DNA of 59,180 bases. It comes from a virus. Each line of letters opens with the position of its first letter. Within the stretch, counting starts at the first letter, position 1. This document shows, piece after piece, positions 10,979 through 55,062 of the stretch. Position numbers and translations under genes: made by a program. The stretch lies in the IMG/VR virus record IMGVR_UViG_3300042691_016575, positions 1-59,180 of that record; one strand, given 5' to 3'. A model generated the notes under the pieces. The model had not been told where the DNA came from. It saw nothing but the letters and a program-made list of their open reading frames with translations, and did not search any database.

Positions 10979-11940
10979 GTTATTATTATAAATATAATTT
11001 TGTTTCCCCAGAACCTATATATGCAATTGTATTAGAAGAGTTAAAGTCATATATGGACACGGGGGCTGTTGATTCTTTGTTATTTCCTACATACCTAGAC
11101 AAATGTCTTAAGAAACTAGGAAAGTCAAGTTATGTTATAGCTGAAGTGGCTCTTCACATAGAAGATTTTGAAGCACGTCTTCCTGATAACTTTTATGCTG
11201 TAAGAGAGGCTTGGATGTGTACAGAAATTCCTTTACTACCATATCAATCAGCCAATTCTTTTTATTCTCAAACAGGCACTACAACAATACAAATAGCCCC
11301 TATTACATTTAATGGAACTCCTTGTACAAATACAGGTTGTACAACAGGATGTCCAGAATGTATGCCAGATATTGTACAAGCTGTATACAAAACTAATTCA
11401 CAACAAGCAAGATCATACAAACAAGCTTATTTGCTTAAACCTGGTAATATATCTACAAGACACAATTGTGATGTTAATTACAGTAGTAATTTAGATTTAT
11501 ATGGCCAGTATCATAATACTACAGGAAATATTCCTTATGGTTCTGCTTATGATTCTTTTGATGTAAGAGGTAATAAATTTGTTACAAACTTTAGAACAGG
11601 AGTTGTTCATTTAATTATGTATGCTACAGACTACGATGAAATAGGAAATCAATTACTTCCTGACAACTATCGTATTAGAGAGTATGTTGAGCACTTCATT
11701 AAATATAAAGTTTTTGAAATGTTAACTAATCAAACTAATGATGAAACATTTAATCAGCTTCAACAAAAGCTTATGTATTATAAATCTCTAGCTGATGAGG
11801 CTTATATAATGGCTGAAATGGAAATTAAAAAGCAAGATGCTTATACAAAAGTTAATAGAATAAAAAAACAATTGAATAAGTTTAATATGTATGAACTTCC
11901 CAATCGTACAAATAGATATGGTAGAAGACGTAATAATTAA
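10975..11940 (+). CDS. Tail tubular / ring protein (P22 gp4-like, crAss-like stabilisation protein)
   Basis: 321 residues. Helical N-terminus (AIVLEELKSYMDTGAVDSLLFPTYL cut short here as residues 16-40), followed by a mixed region with YVIAEVALHIEDFEARLPDNFYAV. A Cys-rich insertion follows (CTNTGCTTGCPEC), then a second core with VVHLIMYATDYDEIG and DNYRIREYVEHFIKYKVFE. A long helix and a basic tail (NRYGRRRNN) end it. The two-part core with a lengthy insert is characteristic of the tail tubular/head-completion protein upstream of the muzzle gene in crAss-like phages. The ATG at 10975 overlaps the endonuclease stop by 4 bases. The Cys-rich insertion may be a metal or disulfide-stabilised loop. 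Confidence 0.75.
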   Translation: MSYYYKYNFVSPEPIYAIVLEELKSYMDTGAVDSLLFPTYLDKCLKKLGKSSYVIAEVALHIEDFEARLPDNFYAVREAWMCTEIPLLPYQSANSFYSQTGTTTIQIAPITFNGTPCTNTGCTTGCPECMPDIVQAVYKTNSQQARSYKQAYLLKPGNISTRHNCDVNYSSNLDLYGQYHNTTGNIPYGSAYDSFDVRGNKFVTNFRTGVVHLIMYATDYDEIGNQLLPDNYRIREYVEHFIKYKVFEMLTNQTNDETFNQLQQKLMYYKSLADEAYIMAEMEIKKQDAYTKVNRIKKQLNKFNMYELPNRTNRYGRRRNN

Positions 11941-36100: not shown

Positions 36101-39100
36101 AATGTTTAAAGAAAGAATTGATTATGCAATATTTGAATCAGGTAGAAAAGTTGGTATTGAAAAAGCACATAGTCTTTACAACCAAGATGGAACGTTTAAT
36201 GATGCTGAGTTTGCTGGAGATACTAAAGTGTTAGTACCATGGAGTATTAATGGTATTCAAGTTGAAACTTCATATGAAGGTGGTGGAGAACAAACAAGAG
36301 GTTCTCAACCTACAAAGATTGTAACATTAGATATGTTTGATAATGGTGAAGAAACAATGGAAGGAGCAAAAGAAGCTTTTGAAGCTTATAACAGAGCTCT
36401 TAAAGATCTTGATGATAACGCATATATAGAACTTCTTTCTAAGTTTGGTGTGGAAGATCTTGGTATGGGTGAATTTGAATTACTAGACCCAGCAATTATT
36501 TCAAAAACTCTTGAGCATGAATTGTTTAGAAGACAACTTTCTAACAATGCTAAAAACACAATTTTATTAGATGAGAATGGAGAGTTTAGAATGCCATTTG
36601 AATCATCTCCTGCGTACAAACAAATTAAAGATGTTGTGTATTCAATGGTTAATAAATCATTAGTTTCTCCTAAAATGAATGGAGGAGGTTATACACAAGC
36701 TGCTGTTACTGGATGGGAGAATGCTGAAAAAGGAAGAGGTATTGCTATCAAAGATAAAAATGGATATAAAGAAATATCTAGAAAAGAATACGAAGCTTTA
36801 CCTGCAGATCAAAAAAAGAAAGTGGTTCTTACAAGTAATAAACTTCATTTCCCTACAAAAGAAGATCCTTATATGGAAGTATTACTTCCTAACTGGATGA
36901 AAAAATCACTTAAAGGTAAATTTTCTAATGATGCAGACCTTATTAAAGAATTAAACAAACCTGAGAATCAAGGAATTTTAAAAGGTATTGCATTTCGTAT
37001 TCCAGCACAAGCTATGTCTTCTATGGCTGCTATTAGAGTGGCAGGATTTTTACCAGACTATATGGGTAAAACTGTTATTGTTCCTTCAGAGATTACATCT
37101 CAAGCAGGATCAGATTTTGATATTGATAAATTAAACATGTATCTTAAGTCTGTATATGTAGATGAGAATGGAAAACTTCATGCAGTTGATTATAAAGGAT
37201 CTGAGAAAGCTACCAAAGACTTCTATGGTAAAGTGTATGACAATACAATTAAAAAGAGTATTGAAAAAATAGCTAATAGTAATGAATTTAGAAAAGAACT
37301 ACTTGATGTATTAAATGCATTTGAACAAACAGATGTAGTAGTGTCTAAAGAACAAAGAATTTTCTATAAGTTAAATGAAGATATTATTAATGAGATAACT
37401 TCTCAAGCTGATGAACTAGAAACATTACCATCAGAATATATAACTAATCAAATTACAGCTCTTTCTCAAAAAACAGAAAAACTTGACTCTAAGTTATTAA
37501 ACGAAGAGATGAAAGATAAGTATGTTAAGACTATGTACAAGAAAGCTCTTGAGAATAGATACTTCGATGCTTTTGAAAAACTTATCACCTTACCTGGAAA
37601 CTATGAAAACTTAATCACTCCTATTGGAGATGCTGGTTTAAAAGATGTATCTAAGGAGTTAGATGTTATGAGAAAGGATGATGAGACATTTATTAAAAAT
37701 AGAATGGTTAATAGAAACTATCTTACAAATCTAAGACATGCATTTCTTACTGGTAAAAGATGGGTTGGTATTGCTGCTGTAAATATTACAGGTCATGCTC
37801 TTGCACAAAGAATGCAATTGGTTATGGATATTGATAGTGTTAAAAATAAACTTTCTGCTAATGATAGAAATATGTTAGGGGATGGTGTAATCAATCTTCC
37901 CCATAATAAAATTAATGGAAAAACATCTCTTTCTGGAACAAAGACAGCTGATGGATTATTTCAATCAATATCTAACAGACTTTCAGGATATGCAACTGCT
38001 GTAGTGGATATATCAAAAGATCCATTTATTATGAAAATTATTAAATCTGATACAGCTATTGGAACATTTATGTTTTTAGAAAGAATTGGTGCAGGACAAA
38101 ATACAATATGGTTTATGAACCAACCAATTATTTCTGAATACTTAGACATGCTTGAAACTAAAGGAAGTACATTTTTATATAATCCAAAAAATATAAATCA
38201 AATACGAGCTAAATTTGGTTTATCTAAAGCAGGAACTAGAGGTACAGAAAAAGAATCATTTGATGTTAATAATTTAAAATCTAATATTGAAAATTATGCT
38301 GACAATAATAATAAAATGTCAACTAAACAACAAAATGAAGAGCAAGGAGCTATACTAAAAGAGTTCTTGAAGTATTCTAAGATGGCTGAATTTAATTTTA
38401 AATTTACACAAGCTACAAACTATGATACTACTAAGTTTAAAAACTCTGATACATTCCATAAGAAAACAACTAAAACAACTCTTGCAAGAGAAACAAATAT
38501 ATTTTCTTCTATAGATAAGCTTTTAGATTCAAGTTCAATTGGTAATCAAAAAAGATTGATAGATTTAGCTATGAAAGCAGTTGGTTCATTTATTAAACTT
38601 GAACAAGAACAATTTATCAATACTACTAACAAAGTGTTGAGATCATTTGAAGAACAAGAATTTATAAAAGATGATGACTTCTCTAAGATTGCTAGTAAAG
38701 CTAAAGCTTCATTCCTTGATTTCATTGTACAAACTAAATCTGGACTTAATACAGAGATACTAGAATTAACAACAGGAGATAATTCCATTACTGAACAATT
38801 AGCAAAAGCTAAATTAAAGTATCCTGGCATGAGATTATTACAAGATCTTGTACCAGAAGAATCTAAAAAAGTTGATGGCGCACAAACTATTAAGCTTAAA
38901 GTGAATGTAAAAGAAGCATATGATGAAAATTTATATGTAGAGATGATGAGAGAACTACGTGAGGTAGAACCTGAGTTATATAATAATATTGTTAAAGTGG
39001 CTATCTTACAAGGAACTTATCAATCTCCTGTATCTATTAATAATATTGTTCCTTTAGAAGACTATTCTAAAAAAATTAAACCTATTATTGATACCCTAGT

Positions 39101-40343
39101 AAGTGATGTTAATATAGAGTACTTTGCTAAAGGTTCTTTCCAAAAGAACAATTGGAAAGATGAATTAATAGTTCCTACAGTTACACCTAGATTTTATTTT
39201 GAAAGAGATGAAAACTTTGAAGAGGTAGAAGAATATGTTGGAGAAGACCCTTATGGAAATGATGTTTATTTATATAAAGTATCTCCATTTTTAGATATGT
39301 TTGATGGAGAAGATCTTGAACAAAAAAGAATGATATTAACTTTAAGCCCAATCTATGATGCTCGTAATGGTGCTAATAATGATTTTGTAAAAGTACCTAG
39401 AGTTATAGTAAACAAAAGAGGACAAAATGTAAATATTGTTACTGGTAAAACTATAAGCTCACAAGCAATGAGAGCTGTAAGAATGCGTGGGGATACATCT
39501 TTAACTGATGTATTTGGTTATCAAAAAGTGAGATACTCAAATGGTGTTCCTGTAACAACTTCTAAAGGTGATTTTGTATACAAGTTAGTTAACTTACTTG
39601 GAGATGGTAACTTAGTTTCTGAATATTATTTAGATGGAAGAAAATCAGTTCTTAATAATGGTACAGTGAAGGTTGAAAATGAAATTCCTGATTCAGACAT
39701 TATTGCTTTTTATGGTGGAGAAATTTCAGAGGAAGTTGTATCTTTACCATCAGAAGAAATTGTTGATGAAGAAATAGAAGTAGAAGTAGAAGTAGAAATA
39801 GAATACACTCCAGAAGAACAATTACAATTTAAGATAGATGATGTTACTAGAAGAATAGCTGAGTTAGAACAATTACAAGAAGGTCTTGCTGAGAGTAACT
39901 TAGAAACAATTATATTAAATAATCTACCTAAGATAACTCCTGTGTCTGCTAAAAAAGAAACTGGTGCTAAAGTAGGAACTAAATCAGACATCAGTCCTTC
40001 TTTATTAAGTGGTAATGGTGTGACTGTAGATCAAGCTGCTCATAATATTTGGGAAGATTATTTTACAGATACAGGAATTGATAGTCAAGACGTAAGAAAC
40101 ATTATTATTGATATATTATCTTCAGGAAGTAAAGCAAATTACCAATCTCAACTTGCTACATCTGGTGAAATGGCTAAATTAAAAGAAGAGTTGAGAGATT
40201 TGAAAACAGATCTTTCTGAATTACAAAAAGGTAAACCTAAAGTAAAAACACTTAAACCTATACCAGGACAACTAGATCTATTTGCAGAAGAGGACAACTC
40301 TTGGAAAGACGAAGATAATAATGATTCTTGTGTACCATTTTAA
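27141..40343 (+). CDS. Giant virion protein with RNA polymerase (DFDID) module and two zincin motifs
   Basis: 4400 residues. Hydrophobic/Gly-rich segments near residues 105-125 and 195-225 could contact membranes. A zincin motif H912-E-I-G-H916 sits in a helix, and a second, GYH1966-E-L-F-H1970, lies about 1050 residues further. Between them is a Glu/Pro-rich spacer region. The segment FLPDYMGKTVIVPSEITSQA followed by GSD3325-F-D3327-I-D3329-KLN is the double-psi beta-barrel catalytic motif of crAss-like virion RNA polymerases (phi14:2 gp66 type), where the aspartates bind Mg2+. GKRWVGIAAVNITGHALAQR downstream also fits. This enzyme is ejected with the DNA and transcribes early genes. The protein is about twice the 2180 residues known for phi14:2, consistent with a fusion of protease-like and polymerase modules. 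Maturation by cleavage is possible. Confidence 0.85.
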   Translation: MPDFDKDLNPFLLNTNKSLPILPNPSNAAPDNYEPVGGGSYGDLSGKGLDPIFGKSAKGPGLLPTVSASDLYQNRRYDIYSADIIDIENQSANAQSRATQAVNGTLKGLNLAATTIAGGFGMLYGAVKSPFTGRLADIWDNEVMQGLDKWNNEVDQNYLPNYYSNQEKNAKWYSTDNWFTANFLFDKLIKNSGFAVGAMVSGNIANGVLGALGASAGRGALALAGASEASQAFKIFTPLLRNTARAFSQAKNIEVAGILEKELSSIADVTARTSKIADLAKATNKIAGLSDYSRRTAIAAYSSAGEASFEALQTSNEYRSNLIEEYKKAYGEEPQGEALKNINEESDKVGKTSFLGNMALLTLTEFKQLPYLTGSSYSASKRAANNLAGKVEDVVLKDGKYVSAISEPVSVLGKTYKTAKRYGTYVFDPKEAGQEIGQYALQVGTNNYFEKSKQSNDASILTDGFLYGMFGEDEKGKEVGALVSKEGIEGGILGGITGGLMQAKSNIQQSKQIKTNTELFLNSINNAPTFKQAFQERLDSANRGIVLQQEQQDAVIQGDKLNAKDLDFDMLHNYLAPRIKYGRMDMVMDDFAELKTMGYSPEGLSSLADQGLANINDTVQSFQNRVNRLESTAKNIDELYASTNLRFSGEILKDENGNEFVDGNGFKIKKYSPLVIDKIVYAASKITDYDLRIPELSARLVRANVPVQEVVDDELSNDTSVSLAKVIYNIDQQKSERIDTELAKQELKDVVGLSKRRQQFINEYNDLIDNPQSYTSTGEKEEVTPEGKKTRTTTPINTDYFSKSRNRFKSDKRSYSEIINQYGEGEQSKYEVLQKIVESPYATVLEKQLASSFLNFTSRDSKIILGDRTLSTPGRSTRGKDANSALSRINYEDFASDYENTENMVLEHVLLHEIGHDLTTYALSDTNGQFFKELDPLFKFVQETFKNDPDKYAEAGLIKNGEYYAFKNIYEFATEALSNREFQRYLQTVPFKNTQTSTWETFVNSLKTFFRRLFGTNNENLLNETIAVITNNIDETYKAVKEKNIALQKEEQALLSTKNEVDRQQEKAELNSGEIATPIPSETTTSEAIVKEDESFLKTWKDFFISGTSESENAQNRANAPQHVKNSREFLNNIKNFKNSNRIGAILVTSNNEEALGLKGLTELQFGRPITAEDKINDVDLGFVAQVFVEHEKGKAYFVNKEGERLGEVGKQIDVNQAIFQAMPTTELYYTYTDPKTGQRVPRYRKGEKDLLASAAAGWRQERAKLFANNTSAHKVYNIDVSRGIAIINKINGKYERNQVGGILIPESKISSKAGLLQINTAGFISHKGRNVSFKEKGLVILQYEDVLEILNNSILGKEKANTMYQVIKALAIDIREKSISGKPLDIDVNYLTYLQNVLYLRKSGNTTPGSNQFFIDTNKRTISIGGVNYPIIDIENKEAEIVKQLTNTHHNINSKTIKDLTNKFYEYTGEKNAEGQLVARYWKNYQSYLLSSKLPDGKTSRSSDNTPLTTKVAAPTPSVPYSFSQKYATLNDFDLPIIKPAPVVQAAKAPVVPTEPGKIGEYTMDGTTTNTYQFSSGPVEFTGTVDADGNISVDLTVNDTITNAATSPDILATVDGVLQAIDKYNAEDSDEQRVVTFVGDKLIAALKEIQNTQQVEEAPAVEVIEEAPTVVEEIKEDDSRPYGFKKGDKVQYILEVYNQREEPFRSQNIKEGEIEVISEKTKSYRFKDNPDWYKLKGNIFKILKNYTKEEELKQQTPTAVEEAKPATAPVSDNKIKLDKIKSLEDKLSTMSAPASGEFKDYPADYFQYLNLIFRPDFKGNTSEQFDLYSLKGQIYPGELFDPSFNKVIDAVKNTNQYKGTIDILNKQTSLIENITPETKTNAIDITDTDLPDDNYMRVGVTAQEDVMSESDIQILKDFQAEKLSGIPVEVLEDLVDTFDGEKAFGVYVEGVAKFYKAGPRTVGYHELFHPIYQHFLTVDERTDLQEEFRNKPGQFTDRSSGKKIDYANATDQQIEERIADDFGEFKVGQLPARSLSELVRNFFRRIINFFKSINSNPSLAKDLFKAIDAGKYKAFTISEAQKKGPPTYSRIPGITETQAAEYAEDIFSRAANYIFGSNKEYIYDLQQITGAEIYNYIKQAYVAGNVYQQLGEERFNALFTQGKQLLRTIGVDFNEEDLVDINDENVTSVGYSQEAFTTDWKKTSPFAIKLVAATLPQVKPTNQQNNSSLKLPEREKSSVGGFKLVNFSRVFATLLDKVSNTTRIDKVIDKLVDLAGYDATYVRFFQRIGGSYSVDENGNLAKDINFSKFKTEDWRLFINFYQTFTKQKPNAVIQYVVGSEVYTAPANQFTITKQVEQDWFSQMRALAKTRSGFVIFNKDSKTYQVNTDSELWPNKLPKGPEEMIDFLKNLGITFNIDDYLKLKSNQRTEFNDSVGEIYNYLPQAKDIGTLDGKTLKVNKQIAKLAELQVKVTNPNQENTLMGVEGSKKQVYSDNNAPSFFENSFNESETLEELKIARPELNDVFSKNSIILKEGGFFFNDEGNRFKMIKVSYIDGKKVIETNKGTSTSKLTKGERFSQEINQNINGDYYILIPADGATEWMMNLGNSISYENVVGGRAWDEIFDTFKGYLNDDIALARDWKNRSSLKNIGTKAKELRFFKEILEDYAPKQLEELTIMIEDEATTDAEFDDYIAKNSKAIDDAVRKSIEDIVKDTKNILLKTGEVVSGIKDKNDSENMFVYTRLDSNFAMKSGINKFKMSETQFDNLLTFINANSFINNIELHKILFGDPYQFKIKDGILDEPKRVKSFLSPRRTTFNSSEFNEFLNDTNIVNGIELTPDDYGYHEHKDYASTVTLKDVELDTVRYEGVNEADAFSLISDVAYREVKNKNGQWSENAEAWHQWEMAFTRSELSKKGVYNYSSKALKLADEKALLEPQPEHVIDITKPIVSGSQYGENEIKLVLDKTSQMPLYYSAVAGTNLEKLYIKMFKERIDYAIFESGRKVGIEKAHSLYNQDGTFNDAEFAGDTKVLVPWSINGIQVETSYEGGGEQTRGSQPTKIVTLDMFDNGEETMEGAKEAFEAYNRALKDLDDNAYIELLSKFGVEDLGMGEFELLDPAIISKTLEHELFRRQLSNNAKNTILLDENGEFRMPFESSPAYKQIKDVVYSMVNKSLVSPKMNGGGYTQAAVTGWENAEKGRGIAIKDKNGYKEISRKEYEALPADQKKKVVLTSNKLHFPTKEDPYMEVLLPNWMKKSLKGKFSNDADLIKELNKPENQGILKGIAFRIPAQAMSSMAAIRVAGFLPDYMGKTVIVPSEITSQAGSDFDIDKLNMYLKSVYVDENGKLHAVDYKGSEKATKDFYGKVYDNTIKKSIEKIANSNEFRKELLDVLNAFEQTDVVVSKEQRIFYKLNEDIINEITSQADELETLPSEYITNQITALSQKTEKLDSKLLNEEMKDKYVKTMYKKALENRYFDAFEKLITLPGNYENLITPIGDAGLKDVSKELDVMRKDDETFIKNRMVNRNYLTNLRHAFLTGKRWVGIAAVNITGHALAQRMQLVMDIDSVKNKLSANDRNMLGDGVINLPHNKINGKTSLSGTKTADGLFQSISNRLSGYATAVVDISKDPFIMKIIKSDTAIGTFMFLERIGAGQNTIWFMNQPIISEYLDMLETKGSTFLYNPKNINQIRAKFGLSKAGTRGTEKESFDVNNLKSNIENYADNNNKMSTKQQNEEQGAILKEFLKYSKMAEFNFKFTQATNYDTTKFKNSDTFHKKTTKTTLARETNIFSSIDKLLDSSSIGNQKRLIDLAMKAVGSFIKLEQEQFINTTNKVLRSFEEQEFIKDDDFSKIASKAKASFLDFIVQTKSGLNTEILELTTGDNSITEQLAKAKLKYPGMRLLQDLVPEESKKVDGAQTIKLKVNVKEAYDENLYVEMMRELREVEPELYNNIVKVAILQGTYQSPVSINNIVPLEDYSKKIKPIIDTLVSDVNIEYFAKGSFQKNNWKDELIVPTVTPRFYFERDENFEEVEEYVGEDPYGNDVYLYKVSPFLDMFDGEDLEQKRMILTLSPIYDARNGANNDFVKVPRVIVNKRGQNVNIVTGKTISSQAMRAVRMRGDTSLTDVFGYQKVRYSNGVPVTTSKGDFVYKLVNLLGDGNLVSEYYLDGRKSVLNNGTVKVENEIPDSDIIAFYGGEISEEVVSLPSEEIVDEEIEVEVEVEIEYTPEEQLQFKIDDVTRRIAELEQLQEGLAESNLETIILNNLPKITPVSAKKETGAKVGTKSDISPSLLSGNGVTVDQAAHNIWEDYFTDTGIDSQDVRNIIIDILSSGSKANYQSQLATSGEMAKLKEELRDLKTDLSELQKGKPKVKTLKPIPGQLDLFAEEDNSWKDEDNNDSCVPF

Positions 40344-45877: not shown

Positions 45878-46306
45878 ATGGTAACAAGTAAGCAATGTTT
45901 TGATAAATGGGGAGACCCATTAACTACTCACGATGAGGGAACCTATATGGTTATGTGGGATGTTCCAAGTAATTTGGAGATTGGTGTAATACCTAAAAAA
46001 CTTTATTGTAATAAAGCAATGGTGGGTCCATTAACTAAAGCATTTACAAGTCTTATTAAAACTGGGTTTGTTAGAGAATTAAAAACTTGGGATGGTTGTT
46101 TTAATATAAGAAAGAAAAGAGGTCTTACAAGTCATTCATTACATTCTTGGGGAATAGCTATTGATGTAAATGCATTTGAGAATGGATTAAATCAAACTCC
46201 TAAATTATCAGCAGGATTTGTTAAATGTTTTACTGATGCTGGTTTTGACTGGGGTGGAACTTGGGCTCGAAAAGATGGTATGCATTTTCAATTAAGCAAA
46301 ATATGA
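45878..46306 (+). CDS. Peptidase M15 (VanY/D-Ala-D-Ala carboxypeptidase-like) endolysin
   Basis: 142 residues. The zinc-site pattern of M15_4 peptidases is present: SLH89SWGIAID96 (SxHxxGxAxD), with DGMH136F near the C-terminus providing the third ligand. WDGCFNIR is also typical. Proteins of this size and type cut peptide cross-links in peptidoglycan and serve as endolysins in many phages. There is no signal peptide, so export needs a holin. The gene is joined to the spanin-like gene by an ATGA overlap, completing a lysis cassette. Confidence 0.88.
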   Translation: MVTSKQCFDKWGDPLTTHDEGTYMVMWDVPSNLEIGVIPKKLYCNKAMVGPLTKAFTSLIKTGFVRELKTWDGCFNIRKKRGLTSHSLHSWGIAIDVNAFENGLNQTPKLSAGFVKCFTDAGFDWGGTWARKDGMHFQLSKI

Positions 46307-46671
46307 AAATATTAGAAAAATTTAGTTTAATTCCTTCTAAAGTAAAAGACTATATATTAATAGGACTAATTGTTTCTATTGTTATAATTGTTATTGTTAT
46401 GTCTATTAATAACTTTAATGATGTAAGAAGACAAATAAAAATAGAAAAAACAAAGAATGAATTGGTAGATACAAAAATACAAGTGGAGCAAGACAAAAAA
46501 GCATTAGAAGATAATGTTAAGGCTCATGATAGTTTTATTCAAACCACTGTTAAAGAGATTAAAAACATTACAAAAATAAAACCTAAAAGAATTAAATATG
46601 AAAAAATTAAAGTTAGGGATACTAGTTATGATGCTATGCGTAGGGTGCTTGACACTGCACAGCCAAACTAA
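46303..46671 (+). CDS. Inner-membrane spanin-like protein
   Basis: 122 residues from the ATG at 46303, which overlaps the endolysin stop (ATGA). A membrane segment at about residues 17-39 (YILIGLIVSIVIIVIVMSIN) is followed by a periplasmic coiled coil (KIEKTKNELVDTKIQVEQDK) and a Lys/Arg-rich end. The topology, position after the endolysin and overlap with a second lipoprotein-like gene fit an Rz-type i-spanin, which connects inner and outer membranes in the last step of lysis. Sequence identity to known spanins cannot be judged here. Confidence 0.65.
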   Translation: MKILEKFSLIPSKVKDYILIGLIVSIVIIVIVMSINNFNDVRRQIKIEKTKNELVDTKIQVEQDKKALEDNVKAHDSFIQTTVKEIKNITKIKPKRIKYEKIKVRDTSYDAMRRVLDTAQPN

Positions 46672-47050
46672 AGATTTAAATTCTCCAGAAAGAGTTGAGG
46701 CTTTATATAAAATAACTATTCAACATAAAGAACTTACAAAACAAGTTCAAGATTGTCAGAATAGATATAATGCAGAAATGCAAGAATTCGAAAACAAATA
46801 TAAACAAATACATAGCTTAGCAGTAGCTTTAGGCGAAGAATCTAGTGCTTTTGTTGATCATAATTTAGACTTGCAAGCTGGTTTATTAGGCTCTTTAAAA
46901 AAACAAGAAGAGCAAGAAGTTAAACTAGCTAAACTAGAAGCTAAGAATAAGAAAAGATTTGGAATAGGAATATATGGGGGGTATGATGTAATAAACACTC
47001 AACCTTCTGCAGGGATTAGTTTTCATTATACATTAATACGTTTATTTTAA
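46598..47050 (+). CDS. Outer-membrane spanin candidate with signal sequence and C-terminal beta strands
   Basis: 150 residues starting inside the i-spanin-like gene, 74 bases in a different frame. The N-terminus is a signal sequence, MKKLKLGILVMMLCVGCLTL, with a Cys at residue 17 in an imperfect lipobox (CVGC; position -3 is not Leu). A coiled coil covers residues 30-110. The last 30 residues (FGIGIYGGYDV ... ISFHYTLIRLF) alternate like outer-membrane beta strands and end in Phe, as outer-membrane proteins do. Nested overlap with the previous gene is the classic Rz/Rz1 arrangement, though Rz1 proteins are usually much shorter. Confidence 0.6.
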   Translation: MKKLKLGILVMMLCVGCLTLHSQTKDLNSPERVEALYKITIQHKELTKQVQDCQNRYNAEMQEFENKYKQIHSLAVALGEESSAFVDHNLDLQAGLLGSLKKQEEQEVKLAKLEAKNKKRFGIGIYGGYDVINTQPSAGISFHYTLIRLF

Positions 47051-47195: not shown

Positions 47196-47494
47196 TGAAT
47201 ATAGTATATCAAGGAAAGATTGCTTTAGATGGTAGTACAAGAATTAATTGTACAACTACATCTATGGTCGTTTCTTTAATTATATTAAATAATATAGATA
47301 ATAATTACACTGTAACAGTTAATAGATTTGAAACTGGACCTGGTATACATGAGGTTCCTATATATAAATTTGATTTAGATGCTGGAGATTCTGTAAGAGA
47401 TACAACTATTTATACATTATCTCAAGGTGATTATATTCGCTTAGAGTCTACACAGCTTGATACAACATATTATATTTCAGCAGAAACAACATGA
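47195..47494 (+). CDS. Small beta-rich protein, unknown, upstream of the tail fibre gene
   Basis: 99 residues of beta-sandwich character: alternating hydrophobic strands (SMVVSLIILNNIDNNYTVTV), then IYKFDLDAGDSVRD and GDYIRLEST. No signal peptide or Cys. Its start and stop overlap both neighbours by 1 and 4 bases. This tight packing with the tail fibre gene suggests a fibre-associated or adaptor protein. No family is recognised. Confidence 0.55.
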   Translation: MNIVYQGKIALDGSTRINCTTTSMVVSLIILNNIDNNYTVTVNRFETGPGIHEVPIYKFDLDAGDSVRDTTIYTLSQGDYIRLESTQLDTTYYISAETT

Positions 47495-49122
47495 TACAAG
47501 TTTATGATAAGTATGGAAAGATAAAATCTTCAGGACTTCCTGGGTCAGGTACTGTTACAAGTTTTTCAGCAGGTGATTTATCTCCAATATTCACTTCTAC
47601 AGTAACTTCTCCTACAAGCACTCCTAATATTTCCTTCTCTAAGATATCACAAGCACAAAATTTATTTTATGCTAGTCCTAATGGTTCTTCAGGGCTTCCA
47701 ACATTTAGAGCTTTAGTAGCAGCAGATATTCCTACATTAACAAATTATGTACCTACTAGTAGAACATTAACTATTAATGGTGTTACATATGACCTTTCTT
47801 CAGATAGAAGCTGGACAGTAACAGCTTCTGGAGCTACATGGGGAAGTATTACAGGAACAATAACATCCCAAACAGATTTAATTACATACCTATCTACTAA
47901 TTATTTTCCTATTCCTACAGGAACTGTTTCTCAATATATTAGGGGGGATGGTAGTTTAGCCACATTTCCTGCAACAAGTGGGGGAGGAGGAGCTTCTATA
48001 TCTTTTTATCTTAATGGTTCAGTTTCACAAGGTACATTTGGAGGAGTTGCATTTAAAGAAATGGATAGAACGCCAATTTTAGGTGCGGGTACTAATTTTA
48101 CAATAAATACAAATGGATATATTGAGTCTTTTATAACTGATGCAGGAGTACCTAATTTATTAGAGATACCTGGAGGTAATTGGAATTTTGAAACTTATTT
48201 TAGTGCTTCAAGTGGTGGAGGTTCACCATCATTTTACGTTGAGTTATACAAATGGGATGGTGCAACTTTATCTTTAATAGCAAGTAGTTCTACAACTCCA
48301 GAGAATATAACAGGAGGCACAAGTATAGATTTATATGTTAGTGCTTTAGCAGTCCCACAAACTACTTTATTAGCAACTGATAGATTAGCAGTAAGAATAT
48401 GGGTTAATAATAGTGGAAGAACTATTACACTTCATACAGAGGACAATAATCTTTGTCAAGTAATAACAACATTTTCAACTGGTTTAACTGCATTAAATGG
48501 ACTTACAGCACAAGTACAAAATTTAGCAGTAGGTACAACAGGAACTGATTTTGCTATTAACTCTACTACATCAACACATACATTTAATTTACCAACAGCT
48601 TCTGCAACTAATAGAGGAGCTTTAAGTTCAGCAGATTGGATTGCTTTTAGTAATAGGAAAAGACAAATTGTAAATGATACTACTTCAGTAACCACAACTG
48701 GAGTTGCTGTAGCTACTCTAGTAAAAACTTATGAAATAACAACAGGCACTTTACCTATAAGTGGTTTTTTAGATATTTTTATGTATTTAACAAGGTCTGG
48801 GGCAACATCAGGTGCGTATACATTATCAATAAGTGTAAATAGTGTAAATAATTTTGCAACATCTACATTTATTGCTGGATTATCAACACCAGGGAACTTT
48901 GTACAAACACTACCACTAAAAGCAAAACTTGTATTAAAGAGTGGCACAATAACAGGAGCAAATATAGCACAATCAACAGGTGATAATTATCTTAACATGA
49001 CAAGCGTACCTACACCAGTGACTTGTAATAACACAGCAGGGTCAGTTTGGTTTTTTGTATATGTAACACCATCAAGTTCAGGACAATCTTGGACATTACA
49101 AGGAGTAGAAATAACTATATAA
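47491..49122 (+). CDS. Tail fibre / receptor-binding protein
   Basis: 543 residues, rich in Ser, Thr, Gly and Ala. The N-terminal half has segments frequent in phage fibres (VTSFSAGDLSPIFTSTVTSP, GLPTFRALVAADIPTL, TISQYIRGDGSLATFP-like repeats), suggesting repeated shaft units. A Gly-rich hinge near residue 165 precedes beta-rich globular regions. The last 135 residues (ISGFLDIFMYLTRSG ... WTLQGVEITI) look like a receptor-binding head. No enzyme motif is visible. The gene is closely followed by a 131-residue protein that may be a partner or chaperone. Confidence 0.75.
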   Translation: MIQVYDKYGKIKSSGLPGSGTVTSFSAGDLSPIFTSTVTSPTSTPNISFSKISQAQNLFYASPNGSSGLPTFRALVAADIPTLTNYVPTSRTLTINGVTYDLSSDRSWTVTASGATWGSITGTITSQTDLITYLSTNYFPIPTGTVSQYIRGDGSLATFPATSGGGGASISFYLNGSVSQGTFGGVAFKEMDRTPILGAGTNFTINTNGYIESFITDAGVPNLLEIPGGNWNFETYFSASSGGGSPSFYVELYKWDGATLSLIASSSTTPENITGGTSIDLYVSALAVPQTTLLATDRLAVRIWVNNSGRTITLHTEDNNLCQVITTFSTGLTALNGLTAQVQNLAVGTTGTDFAINSTTSTHTFNLPTASATNRGALSSADWIAFSNRKRQIVNDTTSVTTTGVAVATLVKTYEITTGTLPISGFLDIFMYLTRSGATSGAYTLSISVNSVNNFATSTFIAGLSTPGNFVQTLPLKAKLVLKSGTITGANIAQSTGDNYLNMTSVPTPVTCNNTAGSVWFFVYVTPSSSGQSWTLQGVEITI

Positions 49123-49518
49123 ATGAAAACAATATTAGAAACAAACACAGGGAAGGTTCTTTTTGCTGTAGTAGATGATTATGAATTACAAGATAATCAG
49201 ATATCGATAGAGTCTTTATTAACTGAAAGCTTTGTTAATCCCTTTTGGAATTTTGAGACTCAGGTATTTTATGAAGGTGCAACAACTCAAGAAATAAATG
49301 ATATCAGAATACCACAAGCTCTTGAGATAGATTTATATTATACAGGTCTTATCTCAGACCTTTTAAGAAAACATGTTGAAAAGAAAATACTCAGAGGCAT
49401 TGATATACCACAAGCAGTAGAGGAAGAAGTAAATAGACTTAGAGCAGAGTGTAATCAGAAGATTATGGATTTAGGAATAACAAACTTTGCATACAGACAA
49501 TCAAATTTAAGATTATGA
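49123..49518 (+). CDS. Unknown protein next to the fibre gene, possible fibre partner
   Basis: 131 residues starting at the base after the fibre stop. Beta-type N-terminus (TNTGKVLFAVVDDYELQ) and helical, charged C-terminal half (RKHVEKKILRGIDIPQAVEE). Its size and position are those of tail-fibre assembly chaperones, but no signature supports that. Its stop overlaps the next start (ATGA). Confidence 0.55.
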   Translation: MKTILETNTGKVLFAVVDDYELQDNQISIESLLTESFVNPFWNFETQVFYEGATTQEINDIRIPQALEIDLYYTGLISDLLRKHVEKKILRGIDIPQAVEEEVNRLRAECNQKIMDLGITNFAYRQSNLRL

Positions 49519-51014
49519 AAAAACTTTTATCAATTTTGTTTCTATTAAATGCGTTAATATTAACATCTCAAACTGTAACTTATCAACCAAGTAATACAGT
49601 TATTTCAAATCCTGAAAAAGGATTTTATCATTATACATCAACTGGCTCTTCTGGAGGATATAATCTAGTAAACCAATCTACAATAGCTGGTTATAGAACA
49701 AATGAAAATATCACAGTAATACAAAGACAATTCTTTCTACGAGACTTTATTACTGGTATTCCAATCACTTCTACATATCTAACTAATATGCAAACTGATT
49801 TTAACAGAATCAGAAATGCAGGAACTAAAGTGATAGTTAGATTTACATATACATCGTCAAGTTCTTATACAGTATTTCAGCCTACAAAAGCGCAAATACT
49901 TGCACACATTGCACAACTTGCACCTGTAGTGAACGCTAACAAAGATGTTATTGTAGCTATTCAAGCAGGGTTTATTGGCAAGTATGGGGAGTGGTACTAC
50001 ACAGGAAGTAATGAGTTTGGTAATGGAAATTACACTATATTAACTACAACTCAATGGAATAATAGAAAAGAAGTAATGGATAGAATGGTTAGTTCATTTG
50101 ATGCTACTATTCCATTACAATTAAGATATGTTTTTGCAAAACAAAAAATGTATGGAAATACTTTTGTAGGTAGAATAGGATTTTACAATGATAGTTTCTT
50201 AGGAACTTATGGTGATTCAGGAACATTTAATGTTAGTTCAAAATATGGTACACCAACTGCTGCAGACCTAACCTACTGGCAAAATGCTACAATAAATAAT
50301 CCTGTTACTGGAGAAACTAATATGGTTAATTCTCCAAGAACAGATTGTTCTAATACTCTACTAGAGATGGATAGATACAATTGGAGTTTAATTAACAAAG
50401 ATTATTTTCCAACTGTAATTACAGCATGGCAAACTAATGGATGCTTTACAACAATACAAAAAAGTATTGGATATGATTTTAGACTTAATAGTTCAAATAT
50501 AACTAATGGGGTTCTAACTATTAATATTGGAAATTATGGGTATGCCAATGTGTTTAAAGATAGAAAAGCATTTTTAATATGTAAAAATACAACCACCAAT
50601 GTTAATTATTCTTTTGTGATTGATAATAACATTAAGAATATAAGAACTACAAATTATACAATCACTACTAACCTAGCATCCCTAGGATTACCAGTAGGAA
50701 CTTATAAATTATTTCTAAATCTTCCAGATCCATTCATTAGTAACAAACTTTATTCAATTCAAACTTCTAATCTAAACACATGGACAACAGAAGGGTTTAA
50801 CGATTTACAACAAACCTTTACAGTTAACAGTTTAAATATAATTGGTAAAAGGATTGTAATACAAGATGAAGAAATTACAGAAGTTAAAATATACAATTTT
50901 ACTGGATCATTAATTTCAACAAATTTGGATTTATCAGATCTACCCGAAGGAATGTATATTGTAGTTGCTAAAACAAGAACAAATAAAATTATAACTAAAA
51001 AAATACACTTATGA
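49515..51014 (+). CDS. Secreted DUF4874/DUF4832-type protein with T9SS C-terminal sorting domain
   Basis: 499 residues. Residues 1-19 are a signal peptide (MKKLLSILFLLNALILTSQT). The body matches the DUF4874 + DUF4832 pair found in secreted bacterial glycoside-hydrolase-like proteins: ISNPEKGFYHYTST, QTDFNRIRNAGTKVIVRFTY, IQAGFIGKYGEWYYTG and GRIGFYNDSFLGTYGD. The last 60 residues have a type IX secretion sorting-domain pattern: KIYNFTGSLIST, LDLSDLPEGMYIVVAKTRTN and the ending KIITKKIHL. This would let infected cells export it through the host T9SS. A paralogue without signal or sorting domain is at 52590. Substrate and purpose are unknown. Confidence 0.8.
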   Translation: MKKLLSILFLLNALILTSQTVTYQPSNTVISNPEKGFYHYTSTGSSGGYNLVNQSTIAGYRTNENITVIQRQFFLRDFITGIPITSTYLTNMQTDFNRIRNAGTKVIVRFTYTSSSSYTVFQPTKAQILAHIAQLAPVVNANKDVIVAIQAGFIGKYGEWYYTGSNEFGNGNYTILTTTQWNNRKEVMDRMVSSFDATIPLQLRYVFAKQKMYGNTFVGRIGFYNDSFLGTYGDSGTFNVSSKYGTPTAADLTYWQNATINNPVTGETNMVNSPRTDCSNTLLEMDRYNWSLINKDYFPTVITAWQTNGCFTTIQKSIGYDFRLNSSNITNGVLTINIGNYGYANVFKDRKAFLICKNTTTNVNYSFVIDNNIKNIRTTNYTITTNLASLGLPVGTYKLFLNLPDPFISNKLYSIQTSNLNTWTTEGFNDLQQTFTVNSLNIIGKRIVIQDEEITEVKIYNFTGSLISTNLDLSDLPEGMYIVVAKTRTNKIITKKIHL

Positions 51015-51373
51015 AATTTCAATTTCCAGATTTAGATATAATGGGTCATTTTAAATCAATATCAATTGATTTAGATAACTTAGAAGTAATAAAACAAAGA
51101 GGGTGGCACAAACATATTCCTTTAGGAATATTAGCTTATATAGCCACTTATATTGTAGTATCATTAATACCAGGAAGTATTTCATTTTTTCCTAAACATG
51201 TTATTACCACTTTCTTAGTATTTGTAGGGTGTATGACATTTGAGTGGGCCCAAAAAGGTAAAAGATTTATTGATGAATCTGAAAGATTTGAAAGTAATAA
51301 GGATGCTATTGTAAGTACTCCAACATTATTGCTAATAATTTTAGTTTTAAAACTAATAAAAGTAATTAAATAA
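51011..51373 (+). CDS. Small membrane protein, holin candidate
   Basis: 120 residues. Two hydrophobic segments (about residues 37-55, PLGILAYIATYIVVSLIPG, and 63-78, VITTFLVFVGCMTFEW) and a third, shorter one near the C-terminus (TLLLIILVLKLIKVI). Charged residues lie between them, and the C-terminus is Lys-rich. The small size and two to three spans fit a holin, although the lysis cassette is 5 kb upstream. No family is recognised. It overlaps the previous gene by 4 bases. Confidence 0.5.
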   Translation: MKFQFPDLDIMGHFKSISIDLDNLEVIKQRGWHKHIPLGILAYIATYIVVSLIPGSISFFPKHVITTFLVFVGCMTFEWAQKGKRFIDESERFESNKDAIVSTPTLLLIILVLKLIKVIK

Positions 51374-51378
51374 TTTTA

Positions 51379-51386
51379 TATATTTG
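51379..51386 (+). promoter_or_regulatory. Candidate -7 element before the anchor-module genes
   Basis: TATATTTG (TAnnTTTG) lies 22 bases before the ATG at 51408 in a 34-base gap. No correctly spaced TTG is seen. It may start a transcript for the accessory tail genes that share an N-terminal module. Confidence 0.4.
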
Positions 51387-51407
51387 TATAATTAAAATAA
51401 ATTCACT

Positions 51408-51827
51408 ATGGCATCAGTATCAAGATTTATAGGTTGGTCACAAGAAGCAAACTTATTATATCAAATATTAAAACAAGTTACACGACTAACAGCTGTTATA
51501 TTTAGTCTTAAACCTAAATATAAAGTTTATTCAGCTTTATTAGAACAACAAATAGATGGTACAGTTAGTGTTATTGCTGAGTTTGATAATACAGTGGGAG
51601 TTGCAGATTTTACAGGCAGTACTTTAGGAGATATTTCTATTGGGTTTTCTGGTCTACCCTCTTATACTAATGCTTTAGGGTATTGCTATTCTGGAGGAGA
51701 TGGAGAAGATTCATTTAACCCTTGGTTAGTTAGAGATAATAATTTACCATTCTTACAATTACTTAGCACTACTAGTTTAAGCCAGACTCAAAGTAAAATA
51801 AGAGTAGATATTAAAATCTTAATATGA
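51408..51827 (+). CDS. Accessory tail protein: shared N-terminal anchor module plus small beta domain
   Basis: 139 residues. Residues 1-33 (SRFIGWSQEANLLYQILKQV) are the anchor module also seen at 51824 and 52590. The rest is a beta domain (KYKVYSALLEQ, VIAEFDNTVG, IRVDIKILI) that pairs with the C-terminal domain of the protein at 56010 (PYKTYTAILTQ, VFENTLG, IYIEIRVYS). It is probably a virion accessory protein. Function is unknown. The stop overlaps the next ATG by 4 bases. Confidence 0.6.
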   Translation: MASVSRFIGWSQEANLLYQILKQVTRLTAVIFSLKPKYKVYSALLEQQIDGTVSVIAEFDNTVGVADFTGSTLGDISIGFSGLPSYTNALGYCYSGGDGEDSFNPWLVRDNNLPFLQLLSTTSLSQTQSKIRVDIKILI

Positions 51828-52579
51828 TACCAAGAAAACAAATAGGATTTAGTAATGAAGAAAATCTTCTTTGGGAAATATCAAGGCAACTTGATAGAGC
51901 TTTTGTTGTAATGCGTACAAGTGGAACAATTACCACTACCACTAGTACCTCCTCTACTACATCATCAACCACTACAACTACTACAACATTGTTTTGTGAA
52001 AATTGTGTAGAGGCTCCTGTAGTAATAGGAACACAAACTTGGCAAAAATGTAACTTAAATGTTACTACATATAGAAATGGAGATGTTATTCCTTTTGCTT
52101 CTAACGAGACTGAGTGGATTAACTATGCAATCGCAGGGACAGGGGCTTGGTGTTATTATGATTATAACCCTGCTAATGGGCCTATTTATGGAAAACTCTA
52201 TAACAGAGCTGCAGTTAATGATGTTAGGGGATTAGCTCCTCTTGGACAACATATTCCAACTATATCAGAGTTTAATACATTAATTACTTTCTTAGGAGGA
52301 ATAGGGATTGCAGGTGGTAAAATGAAGCAAGAAGGACTTTGTAGATGGCTTTCTCCTAACACAGGAGCCACTAATGAAAGTGGCTTTGCTGGATTACCTG
52401 GTGGAGCTAACTTTTATGGAACTTTTGCAGAGTTACAAACATCTGGGTTTTGGTGGAGCTCGACTATTTTAATTACAAATGTTAATGAAGTTATTTATAT
52501 AACATATAATGATAGTAATGTAACGATTGCTGCCTCTTTTGACTCTGAGGGGCATTCTGTAAGATGTTTAATAGACTAA
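51824..52579 (+). CDS. Accessory tail protein: anchor module, Thr linker and FISUMP domain
   Basis: 251 residues. Residues 1-30 carry the shared anchor module (KQIGFSNEENLLWEISRQLD), a Thr/Ser linker follows (about 37-55) and a FISUMP domain runs from about residue 56 to the end (VVIGTQTWQKCNLNV, WCYYDYN, YGKLYNRAAV, DVRGLAPLGQHIPT, HSVRCLID). This is the third FISUMP copy in the window. It shows that the display domain can ride on a different scaffold from those at 3955 and 11948. A cell-surface binding role is likely but inferred. Confidence 0.8.
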   Translation: MIPRKQIGFSNEENLLWEISRQLDRAFVVMRTSGTITTTTSTSSTTSSTTTTTTTLFCENCVEAPVVIGTQTWQKCNLNVTTYRNGDVIPFASNETEWINYAIAGTGAWCYYDYNPANGPIYGKLYNRAAVNDVRGLAPLGQHIPTISEFNTLITFLGGIGIAGGKMKQEGLCRWLSPNTGATNESGFAGLPGGANFYGTFAELQTSGFWWSSTILITNVNEVIYITYNDSNVTIAASFDSEGHSVRCLID

Positions 52580-52589
52580 ATATAATATA

Positions 52590-54026
52590 ATGGCTATATC
52601 AAAACAAATAGGTGGGGGCGAGAAGGCTAATCTCTTAAGGGAAATATCAAAACAGTTTGATAGATTGCTTAATGTAATTGGTGGGCAAGGAATAACTACA
52701 ATTATACCTGCATCCAACTTTTTCACTTACACTCCAGATACTACAACTATATTTGCAAATCCAGAAAGAGGATTACAAAAATATTCAAAAAATACTAGTG
52801 GTGGTTCATATTCTCTTATTAATCAAACAACATTAATTAATAATAGACTAGGAGTAGATAAAATAACTGTTTTGTATCGTTATGTAATGCTAGAAGCTTA
52901 TTTAAATACAGATGTTATCGATAATACATATTTAAATAATTTACAAACAGATTTTAATAGAATAAGAAACGCTGGAGTAAAAGTTATATTAAGAATATCA
53001 TATAATAATGATACAATAACTGACACACAACCTGTATTATCTAGAGTACTTAAACACATTAAAGCTTTATCTATAACATTTAATAATAATAAAGATGTAA
53101 TACTATCTATTCATGCTGGATCTATAGGTAAATATGGTGAGTGGTATTACACAGGAGGTAGTACAGAGTTTGGAGATACATCATCTATATCTCCTGCACA
53201 ATGGTTAAATAGAAAGGAAGTTGTAGATACTATGTTGAATGATTTTAGTAGTGATATTCCTATACAAGTTAGATATGCTGATGCCAAGCGTCAAATGTAT
53301 GGAAATACATTATTAACAGATTTAACTGCATTTCAAAATACACCAATTGCTAGAGTTGGGTTTTATAATGATGCATTTTTAAATGAGGATGGAGATATGG
53401 GAACATACAGTATTAGTGGCTGTACTGACCCTGTAGGTACTACAGATTATAATTTCATTGCTAATGCCTCTCAATATCTTCCAATGAATGGGGAGTCAAA
53501 TGGATTAAATCCATGTGATAGTGGTTTTAGAACATCAGGAGCTAATGCTCTTGTGGAATTATATAAATTAAAATTCTCATCATTAAATAGAGATTATTAT
53601 CTTCCAGTATGGAATAACTGGATAGCAGAAGGTGTATATGACACAGTTGTTAGAAATTTAGGATATAGAATACAATTAAACACACTACAGATAGAGGTTA
53701 CTAGTACAATTGATGTAACATTAACACTAGAAAATGTTGGGTATGCAACTATATTAAAACCAAAAACTGTATATTTAGTATTTGTAAGTGGTGCAACTGA
53801 ATATAAAAAAGAGTTAAACACTGATGCTAGATTTTGGACAGGATCTAGCACAATAACAAATTCTTTAGTTAATGATATTCCTAGTGGGCCATATGATTTA
53901 TATTTGCATATTGCAGATATTAATTTAGAATCTAGACCAGAATACAGTGTTAGATTAGCAAACTCTGATATAACTTTTAATAATTTAACAGGGTATAATA
54001 ATTTAAATTCTCAAGTTACCATATAA
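52590..54026 (+). CDS. Virion-anchored DUF4874/DUF4832-type protein
   Basis: 478 residues. Residues 1-32 are the shared anchor module (KQIGGGEKANLLREISKQFD). The body is the same DUF4874/DUF4832 pair as in the secreted protein at 49515: FANPERGLQKYSKNTS, QTDFNRIRNAGVKVILRISY, IHAGSIGKYGEWYYTG, ARVGFYNDAFLNEDGD. It has no signal peptide and no T9SS domain. The last 130 residues form beta domains. The parallel architecture suggests it is carried on the virion while its paralogue is secreted. A carbohydrate-degrading or binding activity is possible; catalytic residues cannot be assigned. Confidence 0.75.
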   Translation: MAISKQIGGGEKANLLREISKQFDRLLNVIGGQGITTIIPASNFFTYTPDTTTIFANPERGLQKYSKNTSGGSYSLINQTTLINNRLGVDKITVLYRYVMLEAYLNTDVIDNTYLNNLQTDFNRIRNAGVKVILRISYNNDTITDTQPVLSRVLKHIKALSITFNNNKDVILSIHAGSIGKYGEWYYTGGSTEFGDTSSISPAQWLNRKEVVDTMLNDFSSDIPIQVRYADAKRQMYGNTLLTDLTAFQNTPIARVGFYNDAFLNEDGDMGTYSISGCTDPVGTTDYNFIANASQYLPMNGESNGLNPCDSGFRTSGANALVELYKLKFSSLNRDYYLPVWNNWIAEGVYDTVVRNLGYRIQLNTLQIEVTSTIDVTLTLENVGYATILKPKTVYLVFVSGATEYKKELNTDARFWTGSSTITNSLVNDIPSGPYDLYLHIADINLESRPEYSVRLANSDITFNNLTGYNNLNSQVTI

Positions 54027-54051: not shown

Positions 54052-55062
54052 ATGAAACCAATTTTTATTACATGTCAGCCAGATGATCAATATTTTATTT
54101 GGCAAAACCATTTATATGTTGAATCTTGCTTACAACAAGGAATAGAAGAAGAACAGATACATATTCTTTTATACAAACCTACATATAGACAATATAATAC
54201 CAACTGGGAAAAACTTAAAGAATTCTATCCAAAACTAAACATTTTTGTTTATGAGGATAAAGGAGTACAACAACACTTAGGAATATACATTCCTATATTA
54301 CGCCCTCACATTCTTTGGCAACATTTTGAGGCTTTCCCTGAATTAAAAGATAAAACAATTGTATATACAGATTGTGATATTCTTTGGACAGATAGAATGA
54401 ATATATCTCATTTATTAGAAGATGACATAAATTATGTCAGTGATGCAAGTTCTTACTTAAATCATACATATTTTGAAAGTAAAAGAAAAGATGTTCTCCC
54501 TGAAAGATTATCAGATTATGAAGAAAGAGATTTTCTTGCAGAAATATGTAATATAGTTGGAATAAATAAAAACATAGCTGTAGAGAACAATTCTAACACA
54601 GGTGGTGTTCAATATATTTTAAAGAATGTTGATACAGAGTTCTGGAAAAAAGTAGAGGCAGATGTTCTTAAAATAAGAAAACATTTATTACAAGCTAATA
54701 AAGATTTCTATAAAGATGAAAATGCAGGAATACAATCATGGTGTGCAGATTTATGGGCAGTACAATTTAATCTTTGGTTTCATAATAGAGAAACAAAAGT
54801 GACACCAGAATTAAACTTTGCTTGGGCCCCTGATCCAATTGTAAAATTAGACTCACACCCAATATTACATAATGCAGGAATAACAGGAACAGAAACAGCA
54901 CATCCTTGTTTTTATAAAGGAAAATATCATCAAGGAGTAAGTCCTTTTACAGACCCATACTTAGATGAAGTTCTTAACCATGATGTTTCTAAGAATTATT
55001 GTACATGGTATTATGCAAACAAGCTTGACGAATTAAGAAAAAAATATAAAATTAATTATTAA
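54052..55062 (+). CDS. Glycosyltransferase-like protein (GT-A fold, DxD motif)
   Basis: 336 residues. The N-terminal half looks like a Rossmann-type nucleotide-sugar domain (FITCQPDDQYFIWQNHLYVE), with D107-C-D109 in KTIVYTDCDILW as the metal-binding DxD motif of GT-A glycosyltransferases. The acceptor side includes NTGGVQYILKNVD and HPILHNAGITGTE, typical of phage and capsule glycosyltransferases. No membrane segment. It lies among the tail-fibre genes and next to a Thr-rich protein, so it may glycosylate Thr-rich virion linkers or modify host surface sugars; both are inference. Confidence 0.75.
   Translation: MKPIFITCQPDDQYFIWQNHLYVESCLQQGIEEEQIHILLYKPTYRQYNTNWEKLKEFYPKLNIFVYEDKGVQQHLGIYIPILRPHILWQHFEAFPELKDKTIVYTDCDILWTDRMNISHLLEDDINYVSDASSYLNHTYFESKRKDVLPERLSDYEERDFLAEICNIVGINKNIAVENNSNTGGVQYILKNVDTEFWKKVEADVLKIRKHLLQANKDFYKDENAGIQSWCADLWAVQFNLWFHNRETKVTPELNFAWAPDPIVKLDSHPILHNAGITGTETAHPCFYKGKYHQGVSPFTDPYLDEVLNHDVSKNYCTWYYANKLDELRKKYKINY

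Follow-up and report, generated by a model that had tools for sequence, protein, structure and literature searches.

A T9SS-tagged and a module-fused copy of a predicted DUF4874/DUF4832 glycoside hydrolase in the genome of a putative Bacteroidota phage

Gene content of the locus

The DNA analysed, referred to here as the window, is the whole of virus record IMGVR_UViG_3300042691_016575 from position 1 to position 59,180, and all coordinates refer to it. Bacteroidota are the predicted host group of this virus, and its kinship to phages of Cellulophaga and Flavobacterium suggests a host equipped with a type IX secretion system (T9SS). Two of its genes, the products of which are termed P0001 and P0002, encode proteins with a DUF4874/DUF4832 body and are found in the following neighbourhood.

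45878-46306, + strand: M15-type peptidase, probable endolysin (PF13539, E 1.1e-14)
47491-49122, + strand: putative tail-fibre-like protein encoded 5' of P0001 (suggested by a weak match to PHROG 28908 and by position)
49123-49518, + strand: gene for 131 aa that runs into the start of P0001, its conserved 3' end marking a cassette junction exactly at the next start codon
49515-51014, + strand: P0001, secreted-format DUF4874/DUF4832 glycoside hydrolase with a T9SS tag, 499 aa
51011-51373, + strand: small membrane protein, putatively holin-like, overlapping the end of P0001
51408-51827, + strand: ORF sharing the N-terminal module of P0002 (module comparison)
51824-52579, + strand: FISUMP-domain (Fib_succ_major) protein, likewise sharing the N-terminal module of P0002 (PF09603, E 8.1e-27)
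52590-54026, + strand: P0002, module-fused DUF4874/DUF4832 copy, 478 aa, without signal peptide or sorting domain

Identical upstream sequence precedes the ATG of the DUF4874/DUF4832 gene in the window and in loci L002, L005, L007, L091 and L010. A homologue of the small membrane protein at 51011 also lies 3' of the DUF4874/DUF4832 gene in L002.

Architecture of the two copies

An earlier note on this DNA had read the protein at 49515 as one furnished with a signal peptide and a C-terminal T9SS sorting domain, and the protein at 52590 as the same two-domain body with a phage module at its N-terminus and neither of those signals. Both readings are borne out by the features of P0001 and P0002, those of P0001 being as follows.

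49515-49571, + strand: predicted signal peptide MKKLLSILFLLNALILTSQ, residues 1-19 (hydrophobic run, maximum KD 2.58)
49608-50129, + strand: DUF4874, N-terminal part of the TIM barrel, residues 32-205 (Pfam, E 3.3e-38)
50172-50771, + strand: DUF4832, end of the barrel and beta-sandwich, residues 220-419 (Pfam, E 1.3e-36)
50850-51005, + strand: T9SS type A C-terminal sorting domain (TIGR04183)

The signal peptide was called from hydrophobicity and from homology to secreted bacterial relatives, and the N-terminal layout of P0001 matches that of both its phage and its bacterial relatives. When the C-terminus was searched for a T9SS domain, as the earlier note had proposed, P0001 matched TIGR04183 with 23.3 bits, the cut-off being 23, and a genome-level search gave 28.5 bits (E 8e-8). 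Its match to Por_Secre_tail PF18962 reached 23.6 bits, under the Pfam cut-off of 27; the sorting domain is therefore judged from its sequence to be real but near threshold. The call is supported by the orthologues, since TIGR04183 scores above its cut-off in 10 of the 17 viral records that carry the gene, with one match in each, at the C-terminus of the DUF4832 gene. Used alone as a query, the phage sorting domain recovered only these same genes. Among orthologues dN/dS is 0.07-0.18 for the enzymatic body, indicating purifying selection, and 0.2-0.54 for the sorting domain.

P0002 possesses both domains in the same order as P0001 (DUF4874, E 1.2e-29; DUF4832, E 4.8e-44, Pfam) and is 37% identical to it over 450 residues, but it has no NCBIfam T9SS match and no hydrophobic N-terminus. 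Instead it begins with a short module.

52590-52685, + strand: N-terminal module of P0002, a single helix at residues 9-32 (AlphaFold2 model, module distribution)

The first 30 or so residues of P0002 match the N-termini of the two preceding ORFs, at 51408 and 51824. In a wider set of 105 ORFs from 75 loci the module was N-terminal in 100, preceding many different bodies and occurring in runs of consecutive genes, which by analogy resembles the way phage attachment modules are usually arranged; this distribution suggests that the module may anchor P0002 to the virion. No copy of it was detected in the cultured phages of INPHARED. The signal-less copies of other phages are without this module, and those of L010 and L096 begin directly at the body.

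AlphaFold2 models of P0001 (pLDDT 91.6, pTM 0.85) and P0002 (pLDDT 91.8, pTM 0.87) both consist of a TIM barrel followed by a beta-sandwich, and so the common body recognised in the earlier note is seen in structure as well as in alignment. The barrel aligns to GH5 endoglucanases and GH14 beta-amylases over approximately 250 residues (Z about 14, rmsd about 4 A). A pair of glutamates is conserved.

49989-49991, + strand: P0001 E159, after barrel strand 4, invariant in 43 homologues
50313-50315, + strand: P0001 E267, after barrel strand 7, invariant in 43 homologues
53139-53141, + strand: P0002 E184, equivalent of E159, invariant
53493-53495, + strand: P0002 E302, equivalent of E267, invariant

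According to the models, the DUF4874/DUF4832 body is a TIM-barrel glycoside hydrolase with a catalytic-type glutamate pair, its activity being predicted. The suggestion in the earlier note that the two proteins serve surface polysaccharide processing gains from the fold and the glutamates. Its further suggestion that the infected cell might be marked was dropped, nothing having been found in its favour, and the clearing of a Pel-like matrix is the better-supported specific version.

Distribution among phages

The DUF4874/DUF4832 gene is present in 17 viral loci, in many of them next to genes for a terminase, portal, sheath, tail fibre or lysozyme. Only the two largest records yielded a PF03237 terminase, and the phage status of the others was judged from their PHROG and Pfam neighbours. 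The phage copies form clades of their own apart from the bacterial homologues, the best of which found are no more than 44% identical to phage copies, but P0002 is 50% identical to the bacterial homologue in L020. Within the phages the format of the protein has changed repeatedly, three changes being required on the tree to account for loss of the signal peptide. A giant phage of 430 kb, unrelated to this one, independently possesses one secreted and one signal-less copy. Among complete phage genes a sorting domain is present in 11 of the 12 with a signal peptide as against none of the three without one (p 0.009, uncorrected for kinship). Signal-less copies sit in tail-fibre or structural blocks, and several secreted copies adjoin lysis genes. 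Existing collections contain little that resembles these proteins: INPHARED yielded no relative of P0001 and, when searched with a generic T9SS tail, only two weak matches in huge uncultured phages; neither P0001 nor P0002 was recognised by PHROGs; and a sequence search of the PDB gave chance matches only.

A lead to the substrate

It has been reported that SIR_1591, a protein with a TIM barrel and DUF4832, is an active hydrolase and that the recombinant protein disperses Pel aggregates (PMC12345266). Among 121 Flavobacterium genomes, DUF4832 scored over its cut-off in 13 and PelF in 10, with both in nine (Fisher p 6e-10), and in six genomes a distance of about 10 kb separates the PelF and DUF4832 genes on a single contig. 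The pel-like locus of Flavobacterium comprises PelF, a PelG-like protein (below cut-off), GH114, DUF2194 and the DUF4874/DUF4832 gene, and a homologue in Actinoplanes adjoins a DUF3492 (PelF-type) gene. No description of pel-like loci in Flavobacterium was found in the literature searched. Pel-like polymers offer a substrate lead for the DUF4874/DUF4832 enzymes of Bacteroidota, and one that points to these loci. Kinship to pel-linked relatives was considered as proof of the substrate and rejected, since the nearer relatives of clade B are homologues lacking a pel locus: among the bacterial homologues near it that were checked, those in L015 and L020 are not flanked by pel genes, and genome G017, the source of L012, has no PelF. 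P0001 is 41% identical to the pel-linked homologue in L032 and 40% to the non-linked one in L012, and P0002, 50% identical to the homologue in L020, is 37% identical to pel-linked homologues.

Possible roles in infection

The interpretation favoured here, to which we assign a probability of roughly 0.6, is that P0001 and P0002 are hydrolases of a Pel-type or related exopolysaccharide, one exported by the T9SS of the host and the other borne on the virion. The substrate of both would be an exopolysaccharide belonging to the Bacteroidota host, with a galactosamine-rich, Pel-like polymer of the matrix, or something related to such a polymer, as the likeliest candidate. P0001 would be produced late in infection and pass through Sec to the periplasm, where the host T9SS would recognise its C-terminal domain and transport it over the outer membrane; once exported, it would strip the matrix around the infected cell, such that progeny were not trapped upon lysis. 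P0002 would remain in the cytoplasm, become part of the particle by way of its N-terminal module and strip the matrix of the next host during adsorption.

Other explanations need to be considered. It is conceivable, if doubtful, that signal-less copies are cytoplasmic enzymes freed by lysis, both formats being soluble and the module serving, for example, oligomerisation; the copies of L010 and L096 that lack any module would fit this, but P0002 carries one that stands at the N-terminus of diverse bodies in runs of genes. An unlikely alternative is superinfection exclusion, in which exported P0001 would destroy the receptor polysaccharide of related phages and so block a second infection. Export to the cell surface fits such a role, which has been proposed for other phage T9SS cargo (PMC7468147), and the body held in common with the tail-block copy means that both could target one receptor polymer. 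However, in several phages the genes are sited among late tail or lysis genes, which is late for exclusion, and the substrate evidence favours a matrix polymer over a proven receptor.

It is quite improbable that P0001 is a metabolic gene through which the infected host digests environmental polysaccharide to feed a slow infection: some bacterial relatives do adjoin GH5 and GH44 T9SS cargo (L031), but the same phage has a copy in its tail block and the genes are linked to those for lysis. Finally, the earlier note had allowed for the 49515 region being host contamination. This was rejected, since the gene recurs in 17 viral loci, many beside phage structural or lysis genes, and its bacterial homologues are distant. 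Unless every viral record is chimeric, contamination is refuted by these data, as is a host gene of recent capture that has no phage function; either is extremely improbable. Bacterial relatives are mostly secreted and have the same layout, but the separate phage clades, the recurrence in phage context and the purifying selection on the body all speak against both.

If matrix removal by an exported and a particle-borne copy is the correct reading, the phage borrows the outer-membrane secretion machine of its host for exit and uses a second copy of the enzyme for entry. It is possible, though we suggest it tentatively, that this represents a general attack on two fronts by Bacteroidota phages using one enzyme family, in which a T9SS-exported form would work from the inside out ahead of lysis and a form present in particles or lysate from the outside in, with the formats interconverting repeatedly by exchange at the conserved start-codon junction. 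Phage depolymerases are usually treated as tail-spike enzymes of entry. A dedicated exported counterpart would turn escape from the matrix at lysis into a selectable and testable step.

Relationship to known systems

Phage-encoded T9SS cargo has already been reported (PMC7468147, PMC6949934), but its deployment in two formats appears to be new. The closest parallel is Cryophage, a Bacteroidota phage with an endoglucanase, a GH39 and PA14 proteins as T9SS cargo in variable islands (PMC7468147); there too the enzymes, glycoside hydrolases among them, have a type A sorting domain and use of the host T9SS is presumed. The present case differs in its DUF4874/DUF4832 enzyme, the tail-block paralogue in the same genome, the recurrence across phages and the substrate lead. 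Sorting domains are likewise encoded by crAss-like contigs, in one instance fused to a BACON domain, but the part of that account available describes carbohydrate-binding repeats rather than a hydrolase and reports no paired format (PMC6949934). SIR_1591 of Streptococcus intermedius shares the TIM barrel and DUF4832, but it is a bacterial, membrane-tethered protein of a Gram-positive pel operon with no T9SS tag and no phage connection (PMC12345266). The DUF4832 protein A0A8S5R645 of Ackermannviridae sp. ctaCq7 is phage-encoded and of similar fold (TM 0.60, E 5.7e-17), but it differs in its low identity (14%), its length (731 aa) and its phage group. P0002, a putative particle protein, resembles virion-borne depolymerases of the tail-spike kind in that a putative attachment module precedes a body predicted to cut polysaccharide and the gene lies within a tail block; unlike that of tail spikes, its body is a TIM barrel and not the usual trimeric beta-helix.

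Two copies of the enzyme in one phage

49515-51014 (+), P0001, 499 residues: signal-peptide-like start, DUF4874, DUF4832 and a T9SS type A sorting domain
52590-54026 (+), P0002, 478 residues: DUF4874 and DUF4832 as in P0001, with neither signal peptide nor sorting domain

The window, an IMG/VR virus record of 59,180 bases with a GC content of 31% in which no tRNA genes were found, encodes two enzymes whose bodies share 37% identity across 450 residues. An earlier note had credited P0001 with a signal peptide and a C-terminal T9SS sorting domain. The description is accurate; the sorting domain is borne out by TIGR04183, which scored 23.3 bits (cut-off 23) and reached 28.5 bits when the whole genome was searched, though taken by itself the domain is near threshold and the Pfam sorting-domain model fell under its own cut-off. 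The description of P0002 as the same two-domain body without either signal also held, both domains being matched. The structure model of P0001 (pLDDT 91.6, pTM 0.85) has a TIM barrel and a beta-sandwich, and residues 32-349 align with GH5 endoglucanases and GH14 beta-amylases (Z ~14, rmsd ~4 Å, 10% identity). Hydrolases of clan GH-A carry their catalytic pair after strands 4 and 7; E159 and E267 of P0001, invariant in 43 homologues, lie after strands 4 and 7 respectively.

Host contamination was ruled out by the phage genes around the relatives and by the low identity (<=44%) of P0001 to the nearest bacterial relatives found. Neighbours of the enzyme gene include a terminase and portal (locus L008), a terminase (L091), a tail sheath (L009), a phage lysozyme, tail fibre and chaperonin (L002) and a Mtd-type collagen-like tail fibre (L092), and terminases are present in the 430-kb and 294-kb records. 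The large structural protein of the window matches counterparts in Cellulophaga phi17:2/phi4:1 and Flavobacterium phage at 23-28%. The window also holds a 4400-residue ORF without a PHROG match (27141-40343) and, adjoining P0002, a 336-residue protein (54052-55062) that matches PHROG 4417 (unknown; E 7.1e-50) and looks glycosyltransferase-like by eye, without Pfam support.

Recurrence of the export signals

IMG/VR was scanned three times with the enzyme, and in the widest scan relatives turned up at 17 viral loci. Of 17 records searched with TIGR04183, the window among them, 12 had a match at E<=1, in 10 of them over the cut-off; each matching record had a single match, which always fell where the DUF4832 gene ends. 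The sorting domain was recognisable in all complete signal-peptide phage genes but L097 (in L005 under the cut-off) and in none of three distinct complete signal-less ones, an association with a Fisher p of 0.009, uncorrected for relatedness. Locus L093 fits the signal-peptide set only weakly, its signal-like stretch being internal to the ORF (7857-11015); the residues ahead of that stretch are similar to those that open the following ORF, at 11224, which suggests a recombination fusion. Among P0001 orthologues dN/dS was 0.07-0.18 for the body and 0.21-0.54 for the sorting domain, which is thus kept by purifying selection weaker than that on the body.

The N-terminal module and the switching of formats

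The first 30 residues of P0002 match the starts of the window ORFs at 51408 and 51824. This module of ~30 residues (KQIGxSxExNLLxEIxKQ), a single helix in the P0002 model, occurs in the ORFs at 51408, 51824 and 52590 and in loci L100-L176; a scan found it in 144 viral contig stretches, 77 loci being kept. It lies within the first five residues in 100 of the 105 module-bearing ORFs fetched and precedes many different bodies, often two to three genes in a row, a spread that resembles the pattern of phage attachment modules. PHROG gave no match for the module-bearing ORFs of the window. Because the module was not found in the cultured phages of the collection searched, it is by analogy that we infer P0002 to be located on the virion through it.

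Two DUF4832 genes occur in two records, the window and a 430-kb phage, in which L006 has the secreted format and a copy 45 kb away (L011/L092), without signal or sorting tail, follows a tail-fibre gene. On the maximum-likelihood tree the signal-less format (L092; L098; the clade of P0002, L010 and L096) requires three changes, each forced by well-supported branches and stable across bootstraps. The bacterial relatives are secreted, so export signals were likely lost on the move into tail blocks. L010 is a signal-less copy in the slot that holds signal-bearing copies in the window, L002, L005, L007 and L091, with the same short upstream gene and near-identical DNA up to the start codon, which suggests that formats are exchanged at this junction. 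The L098/L099 protein (7962-11114), 1051 residues, signal-less and in a structural block, has a long C-terminal extension with a weak Cleaved_Adhesin match.

Phage-encoded T9SS cargo has been reported earlier (PMC7468147, PMC6949934) and DUF4832 hydrolase activity is already known. No description was found in the literature of one enzyme family in exported and tail-block formats within one phage, of such a pair recurring in an unrelated giant phage, or of repeated switching between these formats.

A possible substrate

Streptococcus intermedius has a TIM-barrel protein with DUF4832, SIR_1591, which is active as a hydrolase and disperses aggregates of GalNAc-rich Pel (PMC12345266), and streptococcal and clostridial pel operons contain DUF4832 genes (PMC7112168). 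Among 121 Flavobacterium genomes DUF4832 was over the cut-off in 13, PelF-type DUF3492 in 10 and both in nine (p 6e-10), and in six the two genes lie ~10 kb apart on one contig. ORF order and sequence show these six loci (L183-L188) to be laid out alike: in L183, PelF, a PelG-like protein (25.8 bits, below the cut-off of 29), GH114, a membrane protein, DUF2194 and then the DUF4874/4832 gene; in L184 GH114 was confirmed and the DUF4832 protein has a T9SS tail. GH114 is the endo-alpha-1,4-polygalactosaminidase family. No paper was found describing a conserved pel-like locus of this type in Bacteroidota. An Actinoplanes relative also adjoins a PelF-type gene. Two findings count against such a link: the bacterial relatives near clade B that were checked are not in pel loci, and the closeness of P0001 to pel-linked and to non-pel-linked relatives is about the same. 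We put the chance of a Pel-like substrate at about even.

Proposed role

Most likely, the exported copy would strip the infected cell of its surrounding matrix at about the time of lysis, and the copy that bears the module would remove matrix at adsorption. Several secreted copies adjoin lysis genes. Downstream of the enzyme gene, both L002 and L091 encode a holin-like protein, then a lysozyme (confirmed by Pfam for L002) and spanin-like proteins from overlapping genes; the window has an M15 peptidase 3.2 kb upstream of its secreted copy. For the exported copy the leading alternative is superinfection exclusion, which has been raised for the T9SS cargo of Cryophage. For the other copy it is simple release by lysis; the signal-less copies of other phages, which are without the module, could be set free in this way.

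Two overlapping genes of the window, 46261-46671 and 46598-47050, encode a membrane segment and a signal-like start and have an Rz/Rz1 spanin-like arrangement. Just downstream of the lysis genes, L002 (11578-13122, Pfam-confirmed) and L091 (11408-12955) each encode a Cpn60-family chaperonin.
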